From positions 1 to 31,698 of the IMG/VR virus record IMGVR_UViG_3300032223_003463: DNA of 31,698 nt; one strand, written 5' to 3'. Below are positions 11,643 to 26,354 of this stretch, piece by piece. The stretch is from a virus. Position 1 is the stretch's first letter; the number at the start of each line of letters is the position of its first letter. The translations under genes were made by a program, and so were the position numbers. The notes below the pieces were generated by a model that searched no databases, was not told where the DNA came from, and worked only from the letters and a program-made list of their open reading frames with translations.

Positions 11643-12854
11643 TTAGTTGTCGAGCTGTTTCCAGGTTGTTCCGTTGAAACCGTAGAAATGATGGTTGGTC
11701 GTGTTGAAATAAATGGTTCCCGCTTGGTAGTTCGTCAGTTCCGAAACGGCGGATTGGCCCACAAGATTGAGGGTCGCAGAATTGAAATTCCCGTCGGCAT
11801 CGGAACCACTGTTGTTATTGGCTAAAAAAGACCCGTCCTGGTTGATCGTAAATGTTCCGCCGCCAAAAGAACCCGTGCCGTTAAAAATAGCATTCCCCGC
11901 AGAAAAGAAATTTCCGGTCACTCCCATGCTGGAAGCCAAAACAAGGTTTCCATACTGATCCGCCGTGTAAAAGGAAATGGCTTGCTCAGAATATCCCGCC
12001 CGGGTGTCGAAATAAATGAGTGCGCCGTTGTAACCGTAGGCCTGAACATTTCCGTTCCCGTCCATGTTTGCCCCAAAGTAAAAATTGTAATTTGCGTAAT
12101 TGAGACCCATGGCCGCCCAAGCCTGAGACAAGCCATCGAGGGGCCAATGCAAAGTGGCAGGGTTTAGAGAAACCGTTCCGCCGGTGACGCTTAATGTCCC
12201 TCCAACTGTAACATCCCCCGTGGTTGTGACGCTGTCCGGAGAAATATCCGAGCCGGTCACGTTGGCGGCGCTTCCCGTGGCACCGGTGGCCCCGGTAGTT
12301 CCGGGAATGCCTTGAATTCCTTGGGGACCGGTAGCGCCGGTGGCCCCGGTAGCACCAGCGGGCCCTGTGGCCCCGACAGTTCCCGTTGCTCCTGCAATGC
12401 CCTGAATTCCTTGGGGACCGGTAGCGCCTGTAGCTCCGGTAGCACCAGCGGGCCCCGTTGCTCCAGTTGCCCCGACGGTTCCCGTAGCTCCTGCAATACC
12501 CTGGATGCCCTGAGCCCCTTGCGGGCCGGTAGCACCTGCGGGCCCTGTGGCCCCGACGGTTCCCGTTGCTCCTGTAATACCCTGGATGCCTTGAATTCCT
12601 TGCGGCCCGGTAGCGCCTGTGGCTCCGGTGGCACCAGCGGGCCCCGTTGATCCTGTTGCCCCGGTGGCACCCGTTGGGCCAGCCGGTCCTTGCAATAAAC
12701 TGAGTACCGCCTGGTCGGCGGGGTTTTGCGGGATGGAAAGGGAAATGCTTGAACTGTCAGTGATGGAAAGGGAAACGCCAGCCGTTGAACCGGACGTCAC
12801 GGTCAGCGCCACCGGATCCCCATTTGTGATGGAGAGGTAGACGACGCTGCTCAT
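11643..12854 (-). CDS. Collagen-like tail fibre protein
   Basis: 403 aa. The N-terminal 55 residues are beta-rich and probably attach to the tail. Residues 56-193 are 46 uninterrupted Gly-X-Y triplets built from GPQ, GIQ, GAT and GPA units, giving a collagen-type triple helix and so a trimeric fibre. The rest is Gly/Asn/aromatic-rich and ends in a short motif common at fibre C-termini ([17 protein letters not shown], then TTWKQLDN). It likely mediates host binding. The start overlaps the upstream BppU-like gene by 4 bases. The repeated DNA (12276-12689) invites slippage and length change. Confidence 0.85.
12276..12689 (-). repeat. Gly-X-Y encoding repeat block
   Basis: 46 consecutive collagen triplets. 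At the DNA level, near-identical blocks encode GPQGIQGI plus [15 protein letters not shown] several times over. Synonymous differences between copies show they are not all recent duplicates. Confidence 0.85.
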
Positions 12855-22364: not shown

Positions 22365-22673
22365 TCAAAGGCTGGGCGTTGAGGCGGTGATCGTGTAACC
22401 GGGGCCCTCGTCGTCGATCCGGACGATCTGATAATCGGTCCCGTCGGAAGTGATCATGTTCCCCACGGTCGGCCTCGACCCCCTGAGGTCGGCTTTGCGG
22501 ACCGCCGCACTGATCCCTTTGGTTTGGTTATGGCCTCCCGTCATGAACTGATCCTGGAGTTCGACGGAGGAAACAACGGCGCGAACCGGCCTGTTTGCCA
22601 CGATGATGGTCTGCCCGGCGACATCGAGCATGTCGCGCAATCCGGCGTCCAGAAGTGACCAAGCCTGGTTCAT
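22365..22673 (-). CDS. Head-tail joining protein candidate
   Basis: 102 aa. A short N-terminal helix is followed by strands around TIIVANRPVRAVVSSVEL and a C-terminal pair (GNMITSDGTDYQIVRID, then GPGYTITAS). This resembles the beta-barrel head-closure proteins (lambda FII/SPP1 gp16 type), which typically have a '...g.iy.V..v..dg.g...L' end. TTGAC lies exactly 14 bases before the ATG (22688-22692), inside the upstream gene. Confidence 0.5.
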   Translation of the reverse strand: MNQAWSLLDAGLRDMLDVAGQTIIVANRPVRAVVSSVELQDQFMTGGHNQTKGISAAVRKADLRGSRPTVGNMITSDGTDYQIVRIDDEGPGYTITASTPSL

Positions 22674-22861
22674 GCCTTGCCCCGGGTGTCAAGAGACCGC
22701 TTTTTTGCAAAAATGGCGTCGTAATTGTCCCGAAAGGCTTGGGAAAAACAATTCCTTGGGCAGGATCCTTTGCCATTGGTTCCGATCCCTTGGCTTTTTT
22801 TGAAGGATTGGATCTCCCTTTTTGTTTCAGAGATCGCGGAAGTGCTGCAATCGAGTTTCAT
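22670..22861 (-). CDS. Small hypothetical protein between glycosyltransferase and connector genes
   Basis: 63 aa, basic, with three cysteines (LDCS near the start, GSCPRNC at about 33-39). Overlaps of 4 bases with both neighbours (22858-22861 and 22670-22673) support it as real. No family recognised. It may belong with the glycosyltransferase pair or with the connectors. Confidence 0.5.
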   Translation of the reverse strand: MKLDCSTSAISETKREIQSFKKSQGIGTNGKGSCPRNCFSQAFRDNYDAIFAKKRSLDTRGKA

Positions 22862-23634
22862 GACTTGGGAAGGACCGAGTCCCGAAACTGCTCGTAAGAG
22901 GTCAGCGGCAGCGTGGCGGCCCGCTGCCAGACGCTTTCATTCTGTTCGAGGTTGACCGCTTCGGCCCTGAGGTTGTGCCAGACGTTGCTTTGTCTGGAAT
23001 GCCGCACAAGGGGACCGGCCAGGTTGAAGCATTTCCCGTCGGCATAGGCTTTTCTTTGCCACAAATACCCCTGCCAAATGTCGTCGAAGCGCTCCACGTT
23101 GATAAATTTGCACCAGGGATATTCCTCGGCGCGGAATGCAAGATTCATGCCGCAAAGGGGGAAGTATTTTCCAAAGATGGCTTTCCGGGAAAATTCCATG
23201 GGCCGGGTGGCCCCGTGGACCAACTGGCCCGGGGCGTCATAATCCCCAATCTCGGTCCAAAACCCCATCGAGGCCGCCACCGGCATGCGCACCGTCCGCG
23301 TAAAGTATGGGGTTCCCCGGCTCGCCGGTTCGGTGACTTGTTCGTAGAGCGGAAGCTCGATCGGTTTCAACGCATTTTCATGGTCGGCGATCAAGCTCTG
23401 GATGGTTTGCCCCTCGAGGGGGAAACAGTCGTCATCCAGCACGATGATGACTTTGGCGGCCCATTTGATGGCGTTTTCGATGCCTTTGTTCTTTGTCAGG
23501 GCGCAGCCGGACTTGTCTTTGTCTTGCTGAAGGACAAGGAAGGTTTCCCGGCCGTTCAATCCCCAGGCTGCCAAAAAAGCGTCCCGTTGAGACGGGTTGT
23601 GCCAGGGAACGACGATTTGCGTGGAGGGGTTCAT
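22858..23634 (-). CDS. Reversibly glycosylated polypeptide / UDP-arabinose mutase-like protein (GT75-like)
   Basis: 258 aa. The order of motifs closely follows plant RGP/UAM proteins: VLDDDCFP (65-72, metal/nucleotide-binding DDD), GFWTEIGDYDAPGQL (124-138; plants have a 'glWlniPDYDAPtQL' block), PLCGMNLAF (159-167; 'PmCGMNLAF' in plants) and RFDDIWQGY (182-190; 'RyDDmWaG'). A histidine-serine block follows (VRHSRQSNVWHNL). It is about 100 residues shorter than plant enzymes (about 350). Family members interconvert UDP-arabinopyranose and furanose and become glycosylated themselves. Here it may supply or transfer a pentose for virion decoration with the adjoining glycosyltransferase, which it overlaps by 4 bases. 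A decent purine ribosome site (GAGGAAAA) precedes the ATG. Confidence 0.75.
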   Translation of the reverse strand: MNPSTQIVVPWHNPSQRDAFLAAWGLNGRETFLVLQQDKDKSGCALTKNKGIENAIKWAAKVIIVLDDDCFPLEGQTIQSLIADHENALKPIELPLYEQVTEPASRGTPYFTRTVRMPVAASMGFWTEIGDYDAPGQLVHGATRPMEFSRKAIFGKYFPLCGMNLAFRAEEYPWCKFINVERFDDIWQGYLWQRKAYADGKCFNLAGPLVRHSRQSNVWHNLRAEAVNLEQNESVWQRAATLPLTSYEQFRDSVLPKS

Positions 23635-25364
23635 TTTTCCTCTTTCCTGACGGCATCGGGATTGCGCCGATCGAAGATCGCTTTCCCGAACTCATAGGCC
23701 TCCTTTTTGTTCCCGACCTCGTAAGTGGCATCCATGGGGGCCTTGCCAAAAAAGGCATGGTGGTGGGTAAAGGTGAGCGTACTGGGTCGGATGATCCCGG
23801 CTTTTTCCGCCCGGAAACTGAATTCGGTGTCGGAATAGACCCCCCGGTATTCTCCGCTCAAGAATTCGCCATAAGGGAGTCCGAGGGTTTGCGGCACGGG
23901 CCGCGTGAACACCTGGGTGACCAATAGGGTGTCTTTACGGCTGCCGTCGGAAACCCCGAGCACCGACGGGGCGTTCACGTCACCGATCTGGCTGAGGATC
24001 TGCTCATCCCACCAGATCGGGGGCTCGATGTCGTCTTGGGCTCCGACTAGGACAAGCCCCTCGGAAGCAGAAAACGCAGCGTTGTTGTTGCGGACCATGG
24101 TTCCCCCAAGGTCGTCCAGATGGCCCGCCTCCGTGGTGACGTGCCGGAACCGGCCGAGGACTTGCGTGCTTTCGGTGTCGTCCTCGCTGAAAGCAAAAAT
24201 GTATTCGACCGAGGCCGGATCCTTGGCCCTTTCGAGGAAAAGTTTCCGGGTGAGCGCCGCCTGATGGGGGCGGCCCCGGGTGGGATGCAGGACGCTGATT
24301 TTGCGGCCTTGTTTGATGAAATGGTCTTTTTCGAGGGCATCGGCCTCTTGGAATTGTCCGTTGAGCCTCAGGGCCGTGGTGTAGACGAACAACCCCGCCC
24401 AACCGTAAAGACCCTCCCGGTGTGTCCACGGGCAAAGCCTTGGTTTGGGAAGCACCATGGCCATGCGGGCAAGCGCCAGGCATTCCTGAGGCTTGTTCAT
24501 GTCACTGTAAAGGGCGCTCAGGTAGCAAAGCGCCTCGCGTCGCCACGGCTCGAGGCCCCAGGCTTCCCGTAGCAAAGAAATCTTTGCCTCGGGATCCTGA
24601 GACCAGCGCGAAAGCATGACGTAGAGTTCGTAAGCTTCGCACGTTTGGAGCAGGGAATGGTTTGCTTTCCACCCCTGAAGGGCCGCCACGGCCGTCTTGA
24701 TGGCGTCGTCCATGCGGCCCGTCGCCTCGTATTCCTGGCAGACGTAAAACTGATAACGGGGTTCGGCCGGAAGGCTTTCGATGATGCGGATGTTGCGTTC
24801 GTTGGGCTTGTCCTCCCGGACGGTGCCCGGCATGTGGGTGACGGCCACTTGGTCGTCCTCGATGCGGTCGGGGGCGTCCTTGGTGCAGACCATGTGCTCA
24901 TGCACGGCCCCTTCCCATCGCACGATCCCGGCGCGGCCGATGCGTTCGCGGAACGGTGCCAGCCCGTTGTTGGAAAGCCGGTAGGCGCAGTAAAAAAGGT
25001 CGAAATCCTCCTTTTGCATGATTTCCTGCAACCGGGCGGCACTGGCTTCGTCGATGACGTCGTCGGTGTCGGCCCACATGAGGTGGGAATGACCGTCGGC
25101 AGACCCAAGGTCAAAAGCCATTTGCCGAGCCGCGCCGAAATTGTCCACATGGGGCCAATCCCCATGCCCTTCCGCGTTCTTGTAGACTGCGGTTTTTGCC
25201 CCCAACCGGGCGGCGATCTCCAAGGTGGCGTCCGGGGTCTGGGCGCCGCAAGCCTGGACGATGTAGATGTGGGGGGTGAGTTTTTTGAAACTCGTGACGA
25301 ACCGTTCGATCAGATGCTCGACGTTCCCGGCAATGGCGCAAAGCGCTAAGGATTTTTCAGGCAT
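23631..25364 (-). CDS. Two-domain glycosyltransferase with TPR-like middle
   Basis: 577 aa. Domain 1 (about 1-190) is GT2-like: LALCAIAGNVEHLIERFV at the start and MWADTDD (96-102) as the DxD metal site, followed by FDLFYCAYRLS. Residues about 195-350 are helical repeats resembling TPRs (YEATGRMDDAIKTAVAALQG; YLSALYSDMNKPQECLALAR). Domain 2 (about 354-577) is a second GT-A-like fold, starting ISVLHPTRGRP and carrying VGAQDDIEPP (440-449). TTGAC lies 18 bases before the ATG (25383-25387), just past the capsid terminator. It sits between capsid and connector genes, so the likely target is a virion protein or the host surface. The acceptor is unknown. Confidence 0.8.
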   Translation of the reverse strand: MPEKSLALCAIAGNVEHLIERFVTSFKKLTPHIYIVQACGAQTPDATLEIAARLGAKTAVYKNAEGHGDWPHVDNFGAARQMAFDLGSADGHSHLMWADTDDVIDEASAARLQEIMQKEDFDLFYCAYRLSNNGLAPFRERIGRAGIVRWEGAVHEHMVCTKDAPDRIEDDQVAVTHMPGTVREDKPNERNIRIIESLPAEPRYQFYVCQEYEATGRMDDAIKTAVAALQGWKANHSLLQTCEAYELYVMLSRWSQDPEAKISLLREAWGLEPWRREALCYLSALYSDMNKPQECLALARMAMVLPKPRLCPWTHREGLYGWAGLFVYTTALRLNGQFQEADALEKDHFIKQGRKISVLHPTRGRPHQAALTRKLFLERAKDPASVEYIFAFSEDDTESTQVLGRFRHVTTEAGHLDDLGGTMVRNNNAAFSASEGLVLVGAQDDIEPPIWWDEQILSQIGDVNAPSVLGVSDGSRKDTLLVTQVFTRPVPQTLGLPYGEFLSGEYRGVYSDTEFSFRAEKAGIIRPSTLTFTHHHAFFGKAPMDATYEVGNKKEAYEFGKAIFDRRNPDAVRKEEK

Positions 25365-25463: not shown

Positions 25464-26354
25464 TTAGTAGGCGAAGCGGGCGAGTCCCTGGGTGACTCCT
25501 GCCGTCCATCCCGCGAGCGCCTCGAAGGTCACGAAATGCGTGCCGAGGCTGAGCGAGTAGTGGCGACGGTAGGTCATCGAGAGGCCGCTGGCCTCGTCGG
25601 TGATGACCTTGCTGCTGATGTACAGCGAGTCGTCCTGAGGGGTAAGCGGTCGGACAGCCAGGGCGATGGCGCTCGGGTGAGCGACAAACCCGAGGGTGTT
25701 GCCGGTGCTGGGGATGGAGGAAACCTCCATGGCGTCCAGACCGAGCACGCGGGGGAGCTTGCCCTCCTTGATCGCGTCCCCGCCGAAAGCGAGGTTGGCG
25801 AGAAGGTTTGTGGAGTCACCGAGCAGGGTGTTGAACGAATCGTTGTTCAAGATCAACGCCGCATCCTCGATGGCCACCCCGGCGGCCGCAAGGGCCTTGC
25901 GGGCGCTGCGGACGTGGGAAAGGGCGAAGGAAACCGCTCCGGACGTCACGGTGACGGTCTGGAAGTAACCGGTCGTGCAGACCAGGGAGGTCATGAGCGC
26001 CTGGCTGATGGCCACGGCGACGGCCTTGCCCTGCTGGAAAGCGAACTTCTCGATGTCGGCGAAGCTCGACCCGTGGAACTGGCTGTCCTTGATGCCAACC
26101 GTGGCCTTGCGGTACTGGTTGAGCGTGATGTCCGCATTGGAGGCGCTGCCGGCGTCGGCGCTCTCATAGGCTTCCGAAGCCGTGGTCGCCGTGATGTTGG
26201 CGACGATGGGAACGGAGATCACCGTGCCACGGCGTGCCGCGTCGGTGTTGTAGCTGGTGCTGAACTTGCTCAGCGGGGCCAGGGATGCCGTGAAGGCGTT
26301 GAGGGCGATCTGAGAAATGAGCGTGTCATTCAGACCTGTGAGTGTTGCTGCCAT
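25464..26354 (-). CDS. Major capsid protein
   Basis: 296 aa. The N-terminus (LNDTLISQIALNAFTASLAP, about 8-27) and middle match P22-coat-type/HK97-fold capsid proteins: an early RGTVISVPIVANITATTA strand (42-59), a long spine-like helix region (DIEKFAFQQGKAVAVAISQA, about 99-118), and a late VAHPSAIALAVRPL strand before a YRRHYSLSLGTHFVTFEALA block. The position directly after protease/scaffold fits. The 30-base leader contains no G and hence no Shine-Dalgarno, unusual for a gene that must be highly expressed. A strong hairpin follows the stop. Confidence 0.85.
   Translation of the reverse strand: MAATLTGLNDTLISQIALNAFTASLAPLSKFSTSYNTDAARRGTVISVPIVANITATTASEAYESADAGSASNADITLNQYRKATVGIKDSQFHGSSFADIEKFAFQQGKAVAVAISQALMTSLVCTTGYFQTVTVTSGAVSFALSHVRSARKALAAAGVAIEDAALILNNDSFNTLLGDSTNLLANLAFGGDAIKEGKLPRVLGLDAMEVSSIPSTGNTLGFVAHPSAIALAVRPLTPQDDSLYISSKVITDEASGLSMTYRRHYSLSLGTHFVTFEALAGWTAGVTQGLARFAY

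Follow-up and report, generated by a model that had tools for sequence, protein, structure and literature searches.

The 31,698-nt viral contig analysed here (IMG/VR record IMGVR_UViG_3300032223_003463, the window in what follows) contains, in this order, genes for TerL, portal protein, ORF304, major capsid protein (MCP), a glycosyltransferase of 577 aa (GT577), a protein related to reversibly glycosylated polypeptides (RGP), a 63-aa ORF, head-closure protein Hc1 and tail terminator. The features of the locus that concern us are as follows.

25464..26354, minus strand: major capsid protein, likely acceptor (phrog_283 major head protein, E = 5.6e-19)
23631..25364, minus strand: two-domain glycosyltransferase of 577 aa, probable virion-protein glycosyltransferase (phrog_13126, phrog_14945; AlphaFold2, Foldseek; adjacency to MCP)
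23631..23634, minus strand: 4-nt ATGA overlap of the GT577 stop and the RGP start, presumed to couple their translation
22858..23634, minus strand: short RGP/GT75-like protein of 258 aa, predicted NDP-pyranose mutase, optional accessory gene (Pfam, AlphaFold2, Foldseek, clade support 100/100)
22670..22861, minus strand: conserved 63-aa ORF, downstream edge of a variable slot (directly after GT577 in relatives L047 and L048, after a DUF3431 gene in L045 and L046)
22365..22673, minus strand: Hc1, next conserved structural gene (phrog_82; same order in L045-L049)

The RGP gene starts with ATG. The initial annotation compared its product with plant RGP, or UDP-arabinopyranose mutase (UAM), on the strength of four sequence blocks, and all of these were found: DDDC at residues 67-70, DYDAPGQL at 131-138, CGMNLAF at 161-167 and RFDDIW at 182-187. 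The motifs of the phage protein follow the order DDD, RGxP(F/Y), D(Y)DA..QL, FP(M/L)CGMN, R(F/Y)DD and HS(K/R)xSN, which we take to be that of plant RGPs, in part from the structure 8cid. Analysis against Pfam matched PF03214 (RGP/GT75) alone, scoring 41.2 bits (E = 1.5e-10) where the gathering cut-off is 23.8 bits, and this bears out the proposed relationship. The same family was matched individually by 24 of the 25 members of the short RGP family described below.

Searches with the lone sequence gave weak matches in PDB (best MtdL, E 0.8) and weak glycosyltransferase matches in PHROGs, and these were resolved by profile and fold searches. A profile of the short RGP family detected MtdL at 2e-8 and the UDP-arabinopyranose mutase 8cid (rice UAM2) at 4e-8 in PDB. 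The AlphaFold2 model, built on 25 sequences, had a pLDDT of 93.8 and a pTM of 0.91, and all seven of its top Foldseek matches in PDB were GT75 proteins. MtdL, a bacterial GT75 GDP-fucose/galactose pyranose mutase (PDB 7xpr, 7yua), was the best of these at 8e-12 (range 8e-12 to 8e-11), rice UAM2 was found at 2e-11, and the next fold at 1e-5; the structural comparison with plant UAM that had been suggested earlier therefore places it among the top matches. The model has a GT-A fold and also resembles GT2 enzymes. An ordinary GT2 protein without RGP similarity, the alternative named in the initial annotation, was examined and rejected, since Pfam gives RGP only and the top PDB folds are GT75. The protein is ~74% identical to its counterpart in L002, with pN of 0.21 and pS of 0.82 (saturated). 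Such low non-synonymous change against saturated synonymous change indicates a real gene, and it evolves under purifying selection. Overall, sequence, fold and catalytic residues give strong support to the relationship with RGP/GT75.

The equivalences of catalytic residues to those of MtdL, AtRGP2 and OsUAM1 were taken from sequence alignment rather than coordinate superposition. They are located in the window as follows.

23428..23436, minus strand: D67-D68-D69, equivalent to MtdL D109-D111, predicted Mn/nucleotide binding (alignment; role from PMC9937993)
23317..23319, minus strand: R106 in SRGTPY, equivalent to the glycosylated Arg of GT75 (OsUAM1 R158, MtdL R159)
23242..23244, minus strand: D131, equivalent to MtdL D195 and AtRGP2 D182, essential Asp near the sugar (alignment A3; PMC9937993)
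23143..23154, minus strand: CGMN block, plant-type, with G162 aligned to AtRGP2 G216 and MtdL S228
23080..23091, minus strand: R182-F-D-D185, equivalent to MtdL R257...D260, predicted phosphate binding and catalytic acid/base
22993..23001, minus strand: H212-S-R214, equivalent to MtdL H287 (Mn ligand) and R289

RGP thus has equivalents of all of MtdL D109/D111, R159, D195, R257, D260, H287 and R289. R106, D131, M163, R182, D185, H212 and R214 are invariant in the 25 short RGPs, as are D67 and D69; the middle position of the DXD motif is D68 in 19 and G in 6, and G162 likewise varies. D69 and H212, both invariant, correspond to the Mn-binding pair. Mutating the equivalents of D67, R106, D131, R182 or D185 abolishes the mutase activity of MtdL, AtRGP2 or OsUAM1 (PMC9937993).

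The position of the key Arg was fixed by bacterial and viral intermediates, because the RGxP[FY] column is common to the phage RGP, UAM-like proteins (L034, L035, L037) and an MtdL-like protein (L041). A HMMER alignment to rice UAM2 that paired the phage SRG with FRKG was rejected for this reason, VRGYPF being the true partner. According to the numbering of PMC9937993, MtdL S228 and Q229 correspond to G162 and M163, and the candidates G136 and Q137 were dropped; at these two positions RGP has Gly and Met in place of the Ser and Gln of MtdL.

The base-contact position, Thr13 in MtdL, is occupied by Pro10 in RGP and likewise by Pro in plant RGP/UAM proteins (OsUAM1, AtRGP2, 8cid). A T13P change has been examined in MtdL as a base-selectivity site (PMC9937993). 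Pro10 fits the UDP-using plant RGPs and suggests a preference for UDP over GDP. The equivalent of MtdL S86 is Cys44, which is uninformative for GDP versus UDP.

Canonical GT75 proteins have three regions and 340-377 aa, an architecture from which the short clade departs. The window RGP has 258 aa against 376 aa in MtdL, to which it is ~19% identical. The alignment showed that a ~40-aa nucleotide-loop segment present in MtdL is absent throughout the clade and that the C-terminal helix region is mostly missing, what is left of it being mostly the first helix. As both parts are shortened clade-wide, we term the protein a short variant and not a canonical UAM. W219 and L222, two hydrophobic residues at the dimer interface, are retained. 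At the position of MtdL D87 and AtRGP2 S91, where the alignment borders the deleted loop, the 25 short RGPs appear to have 17 A, 7 G and 1 S, the window residue being A45. Changes at this position abolish mutase activity (PMC9937993), and the position itself is not conserved across GT75.

The apparent Ala/Gly at this position and the loss of the nucleotide loop and of the C-terminal region weaken the reading of RGP as a mutase. They could be explained by loss of the mutase role, with the short RGP acting as a glycosyltransferase itself alongside its partner transferase and using protein, glycan or DNA as acceptor. The GT-A fold with its GT2 similarity agrees with this, as does the ability of GT75 enzymes to put sugar on their own Arg (PMC9937993). 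However, the mutase-essential Arg and the surrounding Asp/His set are invariant, and the transfer would already be done by the partner transferases, GT577 or the TAGT described below. We therefore consider a transferase role rather unlikely.

AtRGP5 and OsUAM2 are GT75 members without activity, and plant RGPs undergo reversible autoglycosylation (PMC9937993); the retained Arg could accordingly also belong to a catalytically poor relic or to a self-glycosylated carrier that primes a glycan. A relic would hardly have retained every mapped catalytic residue throughout so diverse a clade, and the gene is under purifying selection. The carrier role gains no separate support from the invariant Arg, because GT75 mutase activity needs that Arg, and no known carrier use of an Arg-linked sugar was found in the literature searched. 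Taken together, a relic or carrier appears highly improbable.

The short clade consists of 29 viral contigs and one bacterial MAG. In a midpoint-rooted tree the 25 short RGPs were separated by a long branch (support 100/100) from canonical bacterial and viral RGPs. The top viral fold match, a protein of comparable size, is A0A6J5N5Z7 from an uncultured Caudovirales, which is known by its annotation only ('Reversibly glycosylated polypeptide (Fragment)') and is 26% identical to the window RGP. The designation as plant RGP was thus right about GT75 kinship and too narrow otherwise: the phage protein is short, lies in a separate viral clade, has phage glycosyltransferases as partners and, in contrast to plant RGP/UAM, its second Arg (R165) is not conserved.

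A scan of 84,980 species genomes found one close copy (Gemmatimonadales MAG, 57%) and one distant canonical protein (28%). Only three of 50,697 phage records had any match: a 595-kb metagenomic phage, whose RGP is full-length, and cyanophage S-T4 with two records (E 8e-3). Seven viral contigs, recovered with the RGP of the 595-kb phage, also carry canonical RGPs. The full-length canonical proteins in contigs of huge phages and other viruses (L034, L126-L132) constitute a second viral RGP lineage. RGP exceeded the cut-off in 8 of 297 Acidobacteriota genomes and in none of 298 Gemmatimonadota genomes, in a group search which can miss short forms. This limit is apparent from a Gemmatimonadota genome with the short form, which scored 25.8 bits when searched alone and was unmatched in the group search. 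Bacterial members of GT75, MtdL and Hyg20, have been characterised (PMC9937993). With canonical-length RGPs also found in bacteria and in a small number of other viruses, the family is uncommon, yet not confined to plants; the earlier description of it as rare outside plants goes too far. In the literature searched we found nothing linking RGP with phages and no characterised phage GT75 enzyme, the bacterial ones being few.

In the Gemmatimonadales MAG contig (L031) the short RGP lies beside genes that, judged by reading, are of sialic-acid, epimerase and surface-glycan-like type. The phage terminase nearest to that of the window is from Akkermansia phage Moulinsart, at 32% too weak for a host assignment.

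The two-domain glycosyltransferase that had been noted next to RGP was found at the coordinates given above, its stop overlapping the RGP start. From its N- to its C-terminus, GT577 comprises a GT2-like GT-A domain, a helical stretch of TPR-like character and a second GT-A domain. Its AlphaFold2 model (pLDDT 88.3) best matched the peptide glycosyltransferases ThuS/SunS at 9e-16. These share the N-terminal GT-A domain and the helical repeat region, whereas the C-terminal GT-A domain is an addition of GT577, and identity is 14%. The family is present in at least 80 viral contigs, and in 72 of 80 a detectable MCP is immediately upstream. A viral-contig search with MCP as the query gave no matches by itself. 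RGP is absent from all 80 GT577 relatives. The slot behind GT577 holds a DUF3431 gene (L045, L046) or is empty (L047, L048) in the closest relatives, and holds GT2 or methyltransferase-like genes in more distant ones. RGP is thus exchangeable cargo at this place. Across the window and L045-L124 the arrangement of a transferase fixed behind MCP and a slot variably filled with RGP, DUF3431, GT2 or methyltransferase genes has the appearance of a general capsid-glycosylation locus.

The adjacency to MCP, the variable slot and the ThuS/SunS-like fold indicate that GT577 probably glycosylates a virion protein, most simply MCP, which we infer to be the acceptor from gene order and fold resemblance. 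The window also encodes a collagen-like tail fibre protein (11643-12854, minus strand; PF01391, E 3e-22), another possible acceptor of glycans.

Most relatives have a different partner for the short RGP. TAGT (PF20691) was found in 20 of the 30 records and is absent from the window. Among the 29 viral relatives, RGP is directly downstream of it in 18 and lies at a distance of one gene in two others. The typical cassette consists of a ParB-like gene, TAGT and RGP, mostly followed by the terminase, and the TAGT and RGP genes usually overlap or abut, as GT577 and RGP do in the window. ParB-TAGT pairs lack RGP in 18 of 41 loci. The pair of ParB-like gene and TAGT upstream of the terminase, with short RGP as an optional third, is seen in L005, L008-L020, L022-L027 and L133-L174. 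NAD-dependent sugar epimerase genes occur in the RGP cassette of two relatives. An uncharacterised protein of 289-328 aa is encoded directly upstream of RGP in L025 (7114-7983) and L022 (6999-7985); that of L025 had no match in Pfam or PHROGs.

TAGT is named from DNA-modification operons, and its position directly ahead of RGP in most relatives, with ParB-like genes upstream, could mean that a furanose or other sugar is destined for phage DNA bases, not the capsid, with RGP as part of a base-hypermodification system. Pentosylation of DNA by phages is known (PMC6024577; PMC12838424). TAGT and Tet_JBP, which together would mark TET/JBP hypermodification, did not occur in the same phage: Tet_JBP was found in 0 of 30 records, in a search where the control was also unmatched and the records are fragments. 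DNA C5-methylase was present in only three of the 30, and an hmC pathway in RGP-bearing records is unsupported by these searches. Moreover, the window RGP has neither TAGT nor ParB nearby, and its partner is a ThuS/SunS-like transferase behind the capsid gene. DNA as the target is therefore distinctly unlikely in our estimation.

GT75-type mutases contract activated sugars from a six-membered to a five-membered ring. RGP pairs with two families of glycosyltransferase, GT577 and TAGT, and is optional in both settings, which fits supply of a donor better than acceptor-specific transfer. We think it rather probable that the short RGP supplies the adjacent transferase with donor by ring contraction, converting NDP-pyranose to NDP-furanose. 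It would act as a minimal GT75 enzyme whose R106 serves a metal-dependent mutase reaction on NDP-sugars, from pyranose to furanose. As optional cargo, presumably coupled translationally to a glycosyltransferase, it would alter the ring form of the donor used by that enzyme. In the window the SunS/ThuS-like GT577 behind MCP would attach the furanose, so that the capsid, or some other virion protein, would bear furanose-containing glycans. Its position directly behind MCP and its SunS/ThuS likeness make capsid furanose glycans the likely outcome. For this locus, with GT577 behind MCP and RGP in an optional slot, the context best supports supply of a furanose for decorating the capsid; activity, donor, acceptor and translational coupling are what we infer for this system.

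The likeliest donor would be a UDP-sugar present in any host, for example UDP-galactose converted to UDP-galactofuranose. This is favoured because no extra phage genes are needed and because plant UAMs are reported to convert UDP-Galp to UDP-Galf. UDP-arabinofuranose may be considered as an alternative donor; no UDP-pentose-making enzyme was recognised within the window.

More tentatively, and with somewhat less than even confidence, we propose that phages own a lineage of minimal Arg-dependent NDP-sugar mutases, a plug-in that switches the sugar of their own glycosyltransferases from pyranose to furanose, on the capsid in some phages and on DNA or another target in others. This would be the first case of a phage virion or DNA furanosylated by means of a virus-encoded mutase. 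If active, the short clade would to our knowledge contain the smallest GT75 mutase known, would test which parts of the fold catalysis requires and would be a source of scarce NDP-furanose donors. If the proposal is true, phages would adjust their own glycan chemistry by exchanging genes located after a conserved transferase linked to the capsid. Such tuning of glycans would bear on immune recognition of phages, capsid glycans of mycobacteriophages being reported as a shield against antibodies (Freeman et al. 2023, as cited in PMC11256854). In the TAGT phages it would bear on evading host defence as well, provided that their target is DNA.
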